DNA from: Shewanella japonica
GTDB taxonomy: Bacteria; Pseudomonadota; Gammaproteobacteria; Enterobacterales; Shewanellaceae
Length of the DNA stretch: 64,000 nucleotides
Assembly: GCF_002075795.1 (NCBI RefSeq)
Contig: NZ_CP020472.1
Location: forward strand, 3,393,001-3,457,000
Direction: 5' to 3'
A program made the translations under genes and the position numbers. Shown here one piece after another: positions 1 through 10,706 of the stretch (positions are counted from its first letter, which is position 1; each line of letters begins with the position of its first letter). The notes beneath the pieces were generated by a model that did no database searches, was not told where the DNA came from, and saw only the letters and a program-made list of their open reading frames with translations.

Positions 1-17
1 CCACAAGAAATACTTCT

Positions 18-44
18 GGCAACCCATTGGGTTGCCATTTTTTT
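18..44 (+). terminator. Rho-independent terminator, tail of a truncated leftmost array copy
   Basis: Perfect 8-bp stem GGCAACCC/GGGTTGCC with loop ATT, then A and seven T. It is the same as the ends of the four complete copies, so it is read as the end of an array unit cut by the window edge. Confidence 0.85.
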
Positions 45-183
45 ATCTGTGCTTTAATTAATACAAAAATCACCCCTTCCATACAAAGCCCGCACGCTTA
101 TGTTGGTATGAGATAGAAAGGAGTGTTAGATAAAAATGCATCTTGGATATAAATAGAATGAAAAGATCATTTTTTTATAAAAT

Positions 184-446
184 CATTGAACCTTTTATTA
201 AACCACCACTCTGAGTAACTGTAGCGAGTTGATAATGGTTAAGTGGATTCTTACTTACCCAACATCTCAAGTTTGATTAGCCCTTCATCACGGCAACATT
301 AAATGATCGCTAACCGAATTAGTTTACGACTGTTTCATTGTTCATCATCATCCCCCTTATTTGGGAACCTGTTAATTCGCTAGCGCTTGATTAACTTATG
401 TCCCGCAAGAAATACTTCTGGCAACCCATTGGGTTGCCATTTTTTT
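184..446 (+). ncRNA. Candidate structured small RNA, array copy 1
   Basis: Conserved core starting at CATTGAACC and ending at the T-run of a strong terminator, which sets the strand. Visible foldings: GGTTAAGT (237-244) with ACTTACC (253-259), leaving GGATTC in the loop; an outer GGGA/TCCC pair (363-366 with 401-404) enclosing GTTAATT/GATTAAC (371-377 with 389-395); and the terminator 420-446. No ORF of useful length. I see no convincing -35/-10 pair at a conserved place, so the 5' end is a guess from where similarity to copy 4 begins. I do not recognise the family. Confidence 0.5.
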
Positions 447-565
447 ATCTGTGCTTTAATCCATACAAAGCCCGCACGCTTATGTTGGTATGAGATAGAA
501 AGGAGTGTTGGTTAAAAATGAATCTTGGATAAAAATGAAATGAAAAGATCATTTTTTTATAAAAT

Positions 566-828
566 CATTGAACCTTTTATTAAACCACCACTCTGAGTAA
601 CTGTAGCGAGTTGATAATGGTTAAGTAGATTCTTACTTACCCAACATCTCAAGTTTGATTAGCCCTTCATCACGGCAACATCAAATGATCGCTAACCGAA
701 TTAGTTTAAGACTGTTTCATTGTTCATCATCATCCCCCTTATTTGGGAACCTGTTAATTCGCTAGCGCTTGATTAACTTATGTCCCGCAAGAAATACTTC
801 TGGCAACCCATTGGGTTGCCATTTTTTT
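566..828 (+). ncRNA. Candidate structured small RNA, array copy 2
   Basis: Almost base-identical to copy 1 over the 263-base core, with the same internal hairpins and the terminator at 802-828. The preceding spacer is about 20 bases shorter than that of copy 1 (a deletion after the previous terminator), which explains the 382-base period. Confidence 0.5.
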
Positions 829-984
829 ATCTGTGCTTTAATCAATACAAACATGACCCTTTCCATACAAAGCCCGCACGCTTATGTTGGTTTGAGATAG
901 AAAGGAGTGTTGGTTAAAAATGAATCTTGGATAAAAATGCATCTTGGATATAAATAGAATGAAAAAATGATTTTTTTATAAAAT

Positions 985-1248
985 CATTGAACCTTTTATT
1001 AAACCACCACTCTGAGTAACTGTAGCGAGTTGATAATGGTTAAGTGGATTCTTACTTACCCAACATCTCAAGTTTGATTAGCCCTTCATCACGGCAACAT
1101 TAAATGATCGCTAACCGAATTAGTTTAAGACTGTTTCATTGTTTGTTCATCATCCCCCTTATTTGGGAACCTGTTAATCCGCTAGCGTATGATTAACTTA
1201 TGTCCCACAAGAAATACTTCTGGCAACCTATTGGGTTGCCATTTTTTT
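985..1248 (+). ncRNA. Candidate structured small RNA, array copy 3
   Basis: Same core, terminator at 1222-1248. Here the terminator stem reads GGCAACCT against GGGTTGCC, so a G-C pair becomes G-U without breaking the stem. In the upstream hairpin, GTTAATT/GATTAAC of copies 1 and 2 becomes GTTAATC/GATTAAC, turning a U-G pair into C-G. Both changes preserve pairing, which favours a functional RNA fold. Confidence 0.5.
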
Positions 1249-1382
1249 ATCTTAAATTCAGCAAATAAAATTTGAGGTTAATCGGGCAAGTTTCGTTCAA
1301 AGCAAGAAGAGTTGGGTTAATTTTAAACAGGTCTCTTTAAGCTAAAAAATTTTTCCTAAAAAATGTATTTTTTTACTCATGA

Positions 1383-1645
1383 CATTGAACCTTTTGTTAA
1401 ACCGCTACTCTGAGTAAGTGTAGCGAGTTGATAATGGTTAAGTGGATTCTTACTTACCGACTATCTCAAGTTTGATTAGCCCTTCATCACGGCCACATTA
1501 AATGATCGCTAACAGAATTAGTTTAAGACTGTTTCATTGTTCATCATCATCCCCCTTATTTGGGAACCTGTTAATCCGCTAGCGTATGATTAACTTATGT
1601 CCCACAAGAAATACTTCTGGCAACCCATTGGGTTGCCATTTTTTT
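1383..1645 (+). ncRNA. Candidate structured small RNA, array copy 4 (different upstream flank)
   Basis: Most diverged copy, same core length, terminator at 1619-1645. The sequence before it (1250-1380) does not match the flank of the other copies, whereas the core does from CATTGAACC onward. It also carries the C-G version of the inner stem seen in copy 3. The flank difference implies either its own promoter or dependence on readthrough; neither can be told from sequence. It ends about 40 bases before the stop codon of the convergent aminopeptidase gene. Confidence 0.5.
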
Positions 1646-1685
1646 GTTCGTTATTTAGCTAAGGAGTATTGAGGTAACTGGAGTT

Positions 1686-4819: not shown

Positions 4820-5776
4820 TTAAAAACGGCGCCCAAAACCGATAATTAAATGCTGCCAATTTAAAAAGCCATACTCAGCATATAAATTCCATTCATTTTT
4901 CGGCCCGAAGTCATAGTTCATACTCAATGACATATTTTTAGTTTCTTCTTTCGCCAAATCGATATCAAATTTCACATCTTCCATTAAAGGCTCAAGCTCT
5001 GTGCCAACAAAGGAGTAATCACCGGTGACATTCTGATCAACACTTTGATGGCTGAATGCTAAAAACCAAGCTAGCTTGTCGGTGCCTACATCAAATCGTT
5101 GCCCTACTCTTACTGAAGCAATTTTAGTTTTAATGACACTATCAGTTGTATTAGTGTTGGCTTTCACTATTGCCCCCACGGCCATCACAATTACAGGAGT
5201 ATCACCAATAATGGGATCTATTTGTCCCGCAAGCACAGTACCGATACCGTAATTTTTAGCGGTATAATTAATAGGAATTGGCAGTACCACGCCATTACAG
5301 GCCTCATCACAAGGCAAACCTTCAACATTATCTAACTTAGCCAAGATATCTTTGTTGCCTTCGGTATACCCCAACAAAGCATAGACATTCCAAAACGGTA
5401 ATATCCACGCATCAATTTTAAGCTGCACACTTCTATCAGAACCTGTAATACTGACATCTTCAGCAGGCACGACGTAATCATTGGGGCCACGAAACCCTAA
5501 TAAACCACCATCTACTTGAACCTCAAAGTCATTAACAGCGATGTAGTCGGCATCAATGTTGTTATAAAAAAGGCTCACGCCTACGGGGATAGGTAACTCA
5601 TAGCCTCGCTCAGTCGCTTTATCAGACAATAAGGGTAAACCACTCCAGTGAGAAGGCTTAGTCTGTTGTTGTACCACAGTGTTAACATCGTTGTTGGCAT
5701 TAGCAGTAAAACTAACACCTGAAAGTAAAACACTGGCCAATAACACCGATTGAGATTTAACTGAGTAATTAAACAT
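4820..5776 (-). CDS. Uncharacterised outer-membrane beta-barrel-like protein
   Basis: A 318-residue exported protein, not assigned to a named family. It has a signal peptide (cleavage near TANA), then many alternating hydrophobic/polar stretches typical of beta strands, and ends in GRRF with a terminal phenylalanine, as outer-membrane barrels do. A short cysteine pair (CDEAC, near residue 155) may form a disulfide in a loop. It sits between phoR and pstS on the same strand. That suggests a role in phosphate-limited growth, but I see no Pho box before it, so the link is positional only. Start ATG with weak CGGAA upstream. Confidence 0.65.
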   Translation of the reverse strand: MFNYSVKSQSVLLASVLLSGVSFTANANNDVNTVVQQQTKPSHWSGLPLLSDKATERGYELPIPVGVSLFYNNIDADYIAVNDFEVQVDGGLLGFRGPNDYVVPAEDVSITGSDRSVQLKIDAWILPFWNVYALLGYTEGNKDILAKLDNVEGLPCDEACNGVVLPIPINYTAKNYGIGTVLAGQIDPIIGDTPVIVMAVGAIVKANTNTTDSVIKTKIASVRVGQRFDVGTDKLAWFLAFSHQSVDQNVTGDYSFVGTELEPLMEDVKFDIDLAKEETKNMSLSMNYDFGPKNEWNLYAEYGFLNWQHLIIGFGRRF

Positions 5777-8489: not shown

Positions 8490-9446
8490 TTAGAACTTGT
8501 GTTCAATACCTACAGCGAAGTAGCTTTCATCGATAGAGATATCGATAATGTCACCATTGTCTTCTTCTACTGTGCCCATTGAAGTACGGTCAGTGTAGAA
8601 AGCGAATAGTTTTGTAGGCTTACCTAACGAGTAATCTGCACCAATTGACCATGAATCACCTTTGTCTTCCATGTCTTGGTATTGTGCTTTTAACGTTACT
8701 TCTTGAATTTTGTAAGCTGCACTTAATAAGTAACCATCGATGCTTGAACCGCTATCAACTTTTTCTTCTTGCTGGTACATACCGCCTAATACAAAACCAG
8801 CGATTTTACCTTGAACAGTACCACGAACGATGTCGTAACCGGCAACTTCAGAGTCGTAAGCAATTGCAGCATAAACTGGGCTTTTCTTTAGACCAGAATC
8901 ACCGTACATAGCCGCAATACTGAAACCATCACTTTCTTCTTGCTTGCTATCACCTTCAGCAGCGTAAGTTACACCAACTTGAAAATCACCAAACTTTGGC
9001 GTTAAGTAAGTTGCAGTTTGCGCTAGACGGTTTTCACCTTTGAAAAGTGCTTTTAAATCGCCTGAGTAATCGTTAAATAGGTCAACTTTACCTTGTGATT
9101 TTTTCAGCATAGTGTCGTTACGACCCACAGCGAAAGAACCAAAGTTACCTTTTAAACCAACAAACTGGTTACGAGCAGTGAAGTTATCTGAACTAGCATT
9201 GCCAGTATCAACTTGGTATTCGATAGTGTAAAACGCTTCTAAAGACTCACTTAATTCAAATCCGCCTTTTACACCGAAACGTGATGCATTACTTTGAATT
9301 TCAGTTACTGAACCGTCACCTTCGTCATTCGACTGAACTGACACATTCAACTTACCATATACTTCTAGAGGTTCTGCTGCATGGGCAGTTGAAAGCGTAG
9401 CAGTGGCAATAGCAGAAGCAACTAACGTTTTATAAAAAGCATTCAT
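8490..9446 (-). CDS. Outer-membrane porin (gram-negative general porin family)
   Basis: A trimeric-porin-like barrel of about 318 residues. After a signal peptide ending in AHA, the mature start LEVYGKLNVSVQ is characteristic of this family. Further family segments are ASRFGVKGGFELSE, TARNQFVGLKG and FAVGRND, and the chain ends in a terminal Phe (VGIEHKF). I chose the ATG at 9446: AAGGA lies seven bases before it, and a longer in-frame start at 9515 would put 20 charged residues before the signal peptide. It lies upstream of phoB on the same strand, but I see no Pho box in its promoter region, so a PhoE-like phosphate role is not supported. Confidence 0.88.
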   Translation of the reverse strand: MNAFYKTLVASAIATATLSTAHAAEPLEVYGKLNVSVQSNDEGDGSVTEIQSNASRFGVKGGFELSESLEAFYTIEYQVDTGNASSDNFTARNQFVGLKGNFGSFAVGRNDTMLKKSQGKVDLFNDYSGDLKALFKGENRLAQTATYLTPKFGDFQVGVTYAAEGDSKQEESDGFSIAAMYGDSGLKKSPVYAAIAYDSEVAGYDIVRGTVQGKIAGFVLGGMYQQEEKVDSGSSIDGYLLSAAYKIQEVTLKAQYQDMEDKGDSWSIGADYSLGKPTKLFAFYTDRTSMGTVEEDNGDIIDISIDESYFAVGIEHKF

Positions 9447-9794
9447 CATTTCATCCTTTAGACATATTTTTTGGTGTTTTACACCATTTTTTGTGCTGCT
9501 ATCAGGTTGGAACAAGCAGATATTTGCTGCCTAATAGCTTGGGAACGATGCGAATAGTGCACGCCTTTTGTTGCAGAAATATTTCAAAAAGCCGAGTTTA
9601 TTAAGCTAAAGCTAATTCAGCAAAAGCAAAGAACAAACAAGCTGCTGATTTTTAATGGATTTAATTTAAAATTATGAAATATTACAGTTTAATGAATTCT
9701 GAATATGGAACAATCAAGCTGCAGTCTTTTGATGGTTTACCCCAGCGCATGGATCCCGTAAACTGCATTTTTAATTTTTGATGAGTGTCTTTTT

Positions 9795-10706
9795 ATGTGG
9801 TTTAAAAATCTCACCCTTTATCGTTTCAATAAACCTTTCACTACCGATACCGAGGCACTAGAAACAGCATTAGCTGATTTCACTTTCTCGCCATGTTCTA
9901 GCCAAGACATCAGTAAATCTGGATTTTCAAAAGCGTTAGGTAAACAAGGCCATGCATTGGTGCACAGTGCTGAAAATCGCCACCTCATTTGTGTGACCAA
10001 AGAAGAAAAGATTCTACCAGGTCAGGTGATTAAAGAAGCTTTAGATGAAAAAGTGGCATTAATAGAAGATCAAGAAAGTCGCAAAGTCACCAAGAAAGAA
10101 AAAGATGCGATGAAAGAAGAGATCACTATGACGCTTCTGCCTCGGGCATTTTCTCGTCGCAGTCAAACTCACGCGTTAATCATGCCAGAACTTGAGATGA
10201 TTCTGGTTGATAGCTCAAGTGCAGCAAAAGCTGAAGAGTTACTCGCATTATTACGTAAAGCGCTCGGTAGCTTACCAGTTATACCACTTCACTTTACTAC
10301 GCCAATTGAAACCACATTAACTGAATGGTTACGCAATGGTTCATCGCCACAGCCATTTGAAATGCAAGATGAAGCAGAACTTAAGTCAGATTCAGATGAA
10401 GGTGGTATCGTGCGCTTTAAACAGCAGGTACTGCAAGAAGATGAAGTGCTAGCACACCTTGCTACAGGTAAGCAGGTGCACAAGTTAGCGCTACATTTTG
10501 GCCAATCTATCGCATTTTTATTGCAATCAGACGCCAGCGTGAAGCGTCTTAAATTCTCAGAAGAATTCAGAGCGGCAACTGATGATGTTGGCACTGAAGA
10601 TCCTTTAGCCAAATTAGATGCTGACTTCGCACTAATGGGCGGAGAGCTTGTTGCCTTTATCAATGCATTACAACAAGCATTAGGCCCAATAGAAGAGAAT
10701 ATCTAA
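9795..10706 (+). CDS. rdgC: Recombination-associated protein RdgC
   Basis: A 303-residue, ring-forming, nucleoid-associated DNA-binding protein that limits RecA filament activity. It matches RdgC throughout: N-terminal [11 protein letters not shown], then [38 protein letters not shown] and a C-terminal [12 protein letters not shown]. The length equals that of the enterobacterial protein. It is a single gene, divergent from the porin, with a terminator downstream. The intergenic space 9447-9794 (about 350 bases) is AT-rich and should hold both promoters; I could not pick out a clear operator in it. Confidence 0.97.

Follow-up and report, generated by a model that had tools for sequence, protein, structure and literature searches.

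The window, a 64,000-nucleotide stretch of the Shewanella japonica genome, begins with a tandem array on the forward strand, as described in a first-pass annotation. Core copies lie at 184–446, 566–828, 985–1248 and 1381–1646, and each 263-base core spans the region from a promoter to a terminator. What had been taken for a further, partial copy at the window edge is indeed a core copy, ending at position 44 (copy 1, 1–44 within the window), but it is whole: its 5′ part lies upstream of the window, in the locus L086 (window position 1 is L086 position 10001), where its promoter occupies 9770–9796 and its seed begins at 9939. The genome thus carries five tandem copies rather than four and a fragment. 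A diverged sixth copy, referred to below as type B, ends about 390 bases upstream of the window, with a predicted transcript at L086 9515–9614, and is followed by copy 1. In BLAST searches of the 4.98-Mb single-contig genome, the core matched the five array copies only and nowhere else. No open reading frame of at least 60 amino acids overlaps 1–1646, in agreement with the annotation.

Beyond the type B copy, the upstream neighbours are genes for a glutathione peroxidase (GPx) and YfaZ. On its downstream side, the array is followed by an M1 aminopeptidase, PstS, a barrel-like protein without Pfam match, PhoR, PhoB and a Porin_4 porin (8490–9449, reverse strand). The gene between pstS and phoR (4820–5776, reverse strand) encodes a 318-residue protein with a signal-like start, a terminal F and no Pfam match; it has tblastn matches in just 3 of 49 loci. 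The spacer upstream of copy 4 contains a 17-base repeat in 2.9 copies (910–960). We rejected the idea that the array is the cis-acting leader of a gene, as the M1 gene that follows the last copy lies on the opposite strand.

By its sequence, each copy resembles a self-contained transcription unit with the same anatomy: a promoter (GAAC-N17-TCNNA), an unpaired motif (GUUCAUCAU..CYCCC), which we call the seed, a covarying hairpin with CUAGCGC, and a terminator. In copy 2, the promoter regex places a sigma-E-type promoter (GAACC-N17-TCTGA) at 188–214; the predicted transcript covers 222–446, its start being set 7 nt after the -10 element and its end at the T run, with the seed TTCATCATCATCCCCC at 341–356 and, from the terminator search, the terminator at 419–446. 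Copy 3 has its sigma-E-type promoter at 570–596 and a predicted transcript at 604–828 (seed 723–738, terminator 801–828), and copy 4 a promoter of this type at 989–1015 and a predicted transcript at 1023–1248 with the shorter seed TTCATCATCCCCC (1146–1158) and a terminator at 1221–1248. In copy 5, the promoter, again GAACC-N17-TCTGA, is found at 1387–1413, and the predicted transcript at 1421–1645 includes the seed (1540–1555), the loop motif GCTAGCG (1578–1584) and the terminator (1618–1645). All these features are on the forward strand. Positions 1–1700 hold 5 terminator-like sites against 1.1 expected in shuffles, and every one of the five consists of a TGGCAACC..TTGCCA stem and seven T, which bears out the earlier reading that every unit is terminated. 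The hairpins had also been described as identical and perfect; this applies to most of them, but the stem at 1221–1241 carries one C-to-T change, with 9 pairs kept.

Related arrays are found throughout the genus. With the M1 protein as query, we fetched syntenic loci from named genomes, of which 80 were returned, 48 of them from Shewanella. An iterative profile search over 49 loci (these 48 and L086) gave 204 matches; after removal of 5 on the opposite strand, 199 same-strand copies remained in 48 of the 49 loci, with one to six copies per locus. The single locus without a match, L021, has just about 500 bases before its M1 gene, on the side where L018 and L030 carry their copies. These two loci have four copies each, spaced by about 233 nt, upstream of the M1 gene (L018 8780–9609, L030 8720–9554) and none that we found downstream; in this group, it was apparently on the opposite flank of the M1 gene that the array grew. 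The first-pass annotation had named an assembly artefact as a possible undoing of the array, but this is unlikely, because related arrays occupy the same locus in independently assembled relatives. Likewise, in BLAST searches with the S. japonica core, at least 74 of 129 Shewanella genomes have a match at E 0.001 (up to five candidates scored per genome), which is a lower bound since mainly the last 115 nt are conserved. A covariance model, which the annotation had proposed as a check, was built for type B and run on 295 genomes of the order: 21 genomes match at E 1e-8 or better, all of them Shewanella, and the four matches outside the genus are weak (8e-5 to 6.5e-4).

Among the copies listed, we recognize three recurrent subtypes. 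Type A comprises the tandem copies located 3′ of the M1 gene, type B is the outermost copy, and type C, seen in many species, lies between pstS and the M1 gene. A tree was built from 97 copies of 19 chosen loci and read without support values: type B copies form one group that tracks the species, and type A copies cluster by species or species group, a pattern that repeated amplification or gene conversion would produce. Three copies (L043 8284 and 8669, L047 6083) have predicted transcripts of 194–245 nt with a long stretch between CTAGCGC and the terminator, and possibly constitute a further subtype.

The features of the S. japonica copies recur across this collection. The promoter regex GAAC[CTA]-N16-18-TC[TAC]NA, sought within 300 nt of the terminator, matches 197 of 199 copies, and both misses (L010, L039) are cut by contig ends; the corresponding control counts are 3 of 199 for the reverse strands and a mean of 4.9 of 199 for shuffled sequences. 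With a stricter regex, the numbers are 153 copies, 0 reverse strands and 0.1 in shuffles. The promoter spacer is exactly 17 nt in 194 copies. Sigma-70 promoters, which we considered as an alternative for the array, are not in excess (5 found, 6.0 expected). Motif counts refer to 197 predicted transcripts: T runs of at least six end 196 of them, the seed TTCAT..YCCC is found in 190, and CTAGCG in 180, compared with 4.3 in shuffles. The seed region differs between copies by single-base insertions and deletions. Lengths, taken from 190 of the 199 copies, range from 97 to 258 nt for the predicted primary transcripts, with a median of 176.5 nt (n=190). Type B transcripts are predicted to be 97–107 nt long, with the seed 15–23 nt from the inferred start, and the type A transcripts of S. 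japonica 225–241 nt, with a leader of 119–135 nt that may be removed by processing. For the relative L051, the predicted sizes are near 105, 120 and 245 nt; by synteny with L051, the locus of S. oneidensis MR-1 would be expected close to pstS and cgpD.

These transcripts are also predicted to share a fold. Folding z-scores are -3.73 for the last 110 nt of copy 5, -2.34 for its 227-nt form and -2.79 for type B; the seed is unpaired in both copy 5 folds and, in the type B fold, in all but its first bases. In two alignments with hand-chosen members, A1 (type B, 31 copies) and A2 (type A, 32 copies), 98.8% and 95.2% of the cells are paired, with compensatory changes in 6 of 19 and 7 of 20 pairs, respectively; for type A, a count of 7 is also attained by 7 of 500 shuffles. 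For both types, neither any of the 500 shuffles nor any slid control comes up to the covariation score (type B 0.260 versus at most 0.087, type A 0.240 versus at most 0.066), although the tested structures are favoured in this comparison, as they were derived from the same alignments. The number of further pair types is not above shuffles in A1 or A2. Sequence evidence supports both the notion that the core is under selection and the reading of the array as tandem small-RNA genes. Sigma-E-type promoters, the sixth copy, conservation across the genus and a likely porin target are points that go beyond the first-pass annotation.

The sequence of the seed hints at possible targets. Its reverse complement, AAGGGAGATGATGATGAAC, resembles a Shine-Dalgarno sequence followed by start codons. 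At the start of the phoB-linked Porin_4 gene, the predicted pairing site AAAGGATGAAATGATGAAT (9441–9459, reverse strand) comprises the Shine-Dalgarno sequence and the start codons. We matched this porin in 42 loci, with a readable start in 41, and all 41 keep the start region AAAGGAT, 3–4 nt, ATGATGAAC (or AAT). Paired with seeds from the same locus, the porin starts reach a mean of -18.6 kcal/mol in the 41 loci (range -21.2 to -15.5), compared with -10.5 kcal/mol for shuffled seeds, where shuffles keep base composition only and duplex energies ignore mRNA folding. We tried the neighbouring genes in the same manner and rejected PstS (-10.3 versus -10.4 kcal/mol for shuffled seeds), PhoB (-8.2 versus -10.3) and PhoR (-6.8 versus -8.2); GPx is in between (-14.5 versus -12.6). 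The M1 aminopeptidase mRNA was likewise rejected: its pairing in S. japonica (-23.1 kcal/mol) is not kept in relatives, and the mean over the loci is -11.0 kcal/mol versus -12.1 for shuffled seeds. Judged by start conservation and duplex energies, the phoB-linked porin is probably the best predicted target of the family. Among 985 sampled S. japonica starts, this porin ranks 25 with seed A (-17.1 kcal/mol), 130 with the copy 4 seed and 116 with seed B. A genus-wide pattern, AGGAN{3,6}ATGATGAAC, is present in 123 of 126 genomes with mostly 0 control matches, although any pattern that combines a ribosome site with a start codon should outperform a reversed control. Among 30 of its loci that were read, the phoB-linked porin accounts for 15 and the antisense strand of type C copies for 2, and at least four others have a CXXCH haem motif in the stretch covered. 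The S. japonica genome lacks an exact match, since AAT takes the place of AAC in its porin.

Candidates of wider classes emerge from a second pattern, GGAGN{1,8}ATGATGAA, which has 9 matches in the genome versus 1 in the reversed control, 7 of the 9 preceding a plausible open reading frame. By inspection, these seven encode three tandem OmcA/MtrC-like multihaem lipoproteins, a porin-like protein, a small barrel-like protein, a small histidine-rich protein and the cytoplasmic IscS. The three lipoprotein genes (G000 4376718–4381534; L125, L126, L127, L222) have near-identical start regions, and that in L126 is an exact seed complement (GGAGATGATGATGAA). We rejected these cytochromes as a genus-wide target: L153 and L154 have good complements, but the other starts read lack one. 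Such outer-membrane multihaem cytochromes may be additional targets, but solely in certain lineages. For other porins, we drew on 21 of 27 fetched loci, 14 of which gave a start, some of them doubtful (L320, L324, L326, L327). In S. japonica, seed A pairs at -16 to -18 kcal/mol with 3 of the 4 full-length Porin_4 porins, two of them in addition to the phoB-linked one (L319, -16.2; L323, -17.9). The porins of two other genomes (L318, L321), which we take to be of the Omp35 type, do not pair, and Omp35-type porins were rejected as a genus-wide target.

As a class, outer-membrane-like genes are enriched among well-pairing starts in a systematic sample with L222 left out. The AUC is 0.649 with seed B, a value reached by 0 of 60 shuffled seeds, 0.626 with seed A (reached by 3 of 60) and, as a weaker signal, 0.587 with the copy 4 seed (5 of 60). 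A simple script assigned the gene starts and classes in this sample; before removal of L222, it gave 28 outer-membrane-like and 152 signal-peptide genes among 985. Signal-peptide genes give 0.561 with seed B (0 of 60), and no clear signal with seed A (0.526, 12 of 60) or the copy 4 seed (0.521, 12 of 60). MM or MK is a frequent beginning of secreted proteins, and this composition by itself raises the complementarity of their starts to such a seed; the porin result across the genus and the controls with shuffled seeds lessen this concern but do not remove it. One might therefore suppose that the sRNAs are sigma-E-dependent but mainly act elsewhere, the C-rich seed binding ribosome-binding sites broadly or other mRNAs. 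The seed resembles the 3′ end of 16S rRNA and is complementary to Shine-Dalgarno sequences and AUG in general, the strongest matches in the sampled starts are mostly not envelope genes, and many of the top-ranked starts belong to non-envelope genes. Yet the phoB-linked porin stands out in all 41 loci where the PstS, M1, PhoB and PhoR starts do not, and seeds B and A both favour outer-membrane-like genes, so that we consider mainly non-porin targets quite unlikely.

The assignment of the promoters builds on a comparison with rpoE itself. The rpoE gene of S. japonica (TIGR02939, 328.9 bits) is preceded by GAACT-N17-TCTAC, and the same element (once with TCTAT) is found 89–103 nt upstream of rpoE in 27 of 27 readable loci, out of 30 fetched. 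The element before Shewanella rpoE has been published as an RpoE promoter, and the same paper gives TGATCC/CGTATT as the promoter of RpoE2 (PMC4336711). Because the array promoters have the -35 element and spacer of the rpoE promoter, as well as much of its -10 element, and RpoE2 uses another motif, we assign them by sequence to sigma-E (RpoE). A degenerate sigma-E pattern is not enriched genome-wide (36 matches versus 110 in the reversed control). By itself, the motif is therefore no proof, and it is the fixed place before the copies that carries weight. For the same reason, this pattern is uninformative on the sigma-E regulon of S. japonica, the control exceeding the signal; the strict promoter form precedes one gene among the 985 sampled starts. 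At G000 4748005 and 4764728, 16.7 kb apart on the same strand, the same 27-base match occurs, which suggests a duplicated gene. A family search finds six ECF-type matches in the S. japonica genome, and the sRNAs could be real but driven by another ECF sigma factor or an activator; given the agreement with the rpoE promoter and the different motif of RpoE2, this is very unlikely.

The first-pass annotation had proposed that the copies provide sponge capacity, with a GGA in a hairpin loop as a CsrA-type contact. Several similar copies in a row would suit a CsrA-type or other sponge, but GGA (1.13 per transcript versus 1.24 in shuffles) and ANGGA (0.27 versus 0.31) are not above shuffles, and the GGA-loop hairpin regex matches 4 of 197 transcripts, all from S. 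japonica. The CsrA contact thus finds no backing, and neither does the sponge, because the conserved unpaired part instead complements ribosome-binding sites; we regard such a function as highly improbable. Least probable of all is a non-functional tandem duplication, a mobile repeat or a set of small-protein genes: type A copies within a species are alike, as recent duplications are, but the whole genus retains the promoter, fold and seed, type B follows the species, the core's matches in S. japonica are confined to the array, single-base indels distinguish the seed regions, no reading frame of 12 or more codons exists in the type B transcript, and the short reading frames of the S. japonica type A copies differ from one another.

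Taking the promoters, terminators, fold, conservation and complementarity together, we consider it probable that the array encodes a genus-specific, multi-copy family of sigma-E-dependent sRNAs that block outer-membrane mRNAs at their ribosome-binding sites. Under envelope stress, RpoE would be freed and would transcribe each copy from its own promoter, and each transcript (predicted 97–258 nt) would stop at its own intrinsic terminator, presumably to be used with Hfq. The unpaired seed, GUUCAUCAU-(CAU)n-CYCCC, would then pair with target mRNAs in two parts: GUUCAUCAU with the start codons AUGAUGAA(C), and the C-rich part with the Shine-Dalgarno sequence. This would block translation of outer-membrane proteins, the phoB-linked porin foremost among them, and probably lead to degradation of the mRNA. 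Dosage, set by copy number, would be a likely use of the multiple copies. A bolder idea, which we think rather unlikely, is that sibling seeds, differing in the distance between their start-codon half and their Shine-Dalgarno half, suit mRNAs of different Shine-Dalgarno-to-AUG spacing, and that the siblings jointly silence porins as well as, in certain lineages, the outer-membrane multihaem cytochromes that serve extracellular electron transfer; envelope stress would then directly restrain metal and electrode respiration.

Such a family would bear on earlier work in Shewanella. According to a 2009 study, micA and rybB were not found in S. oneidensis, and the porin Omp35, apparently controlled after transcription, was suggested to be subject to a different mechanism (PMC2659441). 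The passage on the predicted S. oneidensis RpoE regulon table lists no sRNA (PMC4336711). A literature search over titles and abstract beginnings returned no paper on this family; an in-silico list of 209 sRNA candidates in S. piezotolerans may contain members in its supplements (PMC5471319). The first-pass annotation did not recognize the family, and the Rfam search it suggested for the locus returns none: Rfam 15 gives no family at gathering score in the window or in L051, and the eight matches at E up to 10 within L086 9000–11800 are all far below gathering scores. The models of RybB (RF00110) and MicA (RF00078) have no match in 40 Shewanella genomes, with positive E. coli controls. This suggests a genus-specific family of a known functional kind, but with an unusual gene arrangement.

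In silico, the family has the features of three sRNA classes. As in sigma-E sRNAs, the promoter lies directly before the RNA and the seed is predicted to pair with outer-membrane mRNAs, with a modest class enrichment; as in Hfq-type sRNAs, an intrinsic terminator with a U tail ends 196 of 197 transcripts; and as in multi-copy siblings of the LhrC or Qrr kind, the copies share a seed and have their own promoters and terminators. The closest functional relatives are RybB and MicA of Enterobacteria, which have sigma-E promoters (GGAACTTTT / GTCAAA) and lower outer-membrane protein mRNAs on envelope stress (PMC1804206). The Shewanella family resembles them in its promoter and in its predicted targets; however, RybB and MicA are single-copy, 70–80 nt long and different in sequence and seed (PMC1804206). 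VrrA of Vibrio cholerae is likewise sigma-E-dependent, about 140 nt long, and binds by base pairing to the 5′ region of the mRNA for an outer-membrane protein (PMC2628432), but it is a single gene, with its model compared through the Rfam scan of the locus. MicV is named beside the sigma-E sRNAs (PMC11005410). In Fusobacterium nucleatum, FoxI and FoxJ are sigma-E-dependent, have a C-rich seed and repress an abundant porin, yet belong to another phylum and are two sRNAs, with no tandem array mentioned in the passages describing them (PMC11005410). The five similar copies of LhrC in Listeria, envelope-stress-induced and additive, block translation through CU-rich sites (PMC4132741); by this description they are alike in layout, but they occur in a Gram-positive organism and are controlled by LisRK rather than sigma-E (PMC4132741). 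If our reading is true, unrelated sRNAs do the same job in Enterobacteria, Vibrio, Fusobacterium and Shewanella, one circuit having been invented repeatedly, and the Shewanella version has the unusual layout of several self-promoted tandem copies.
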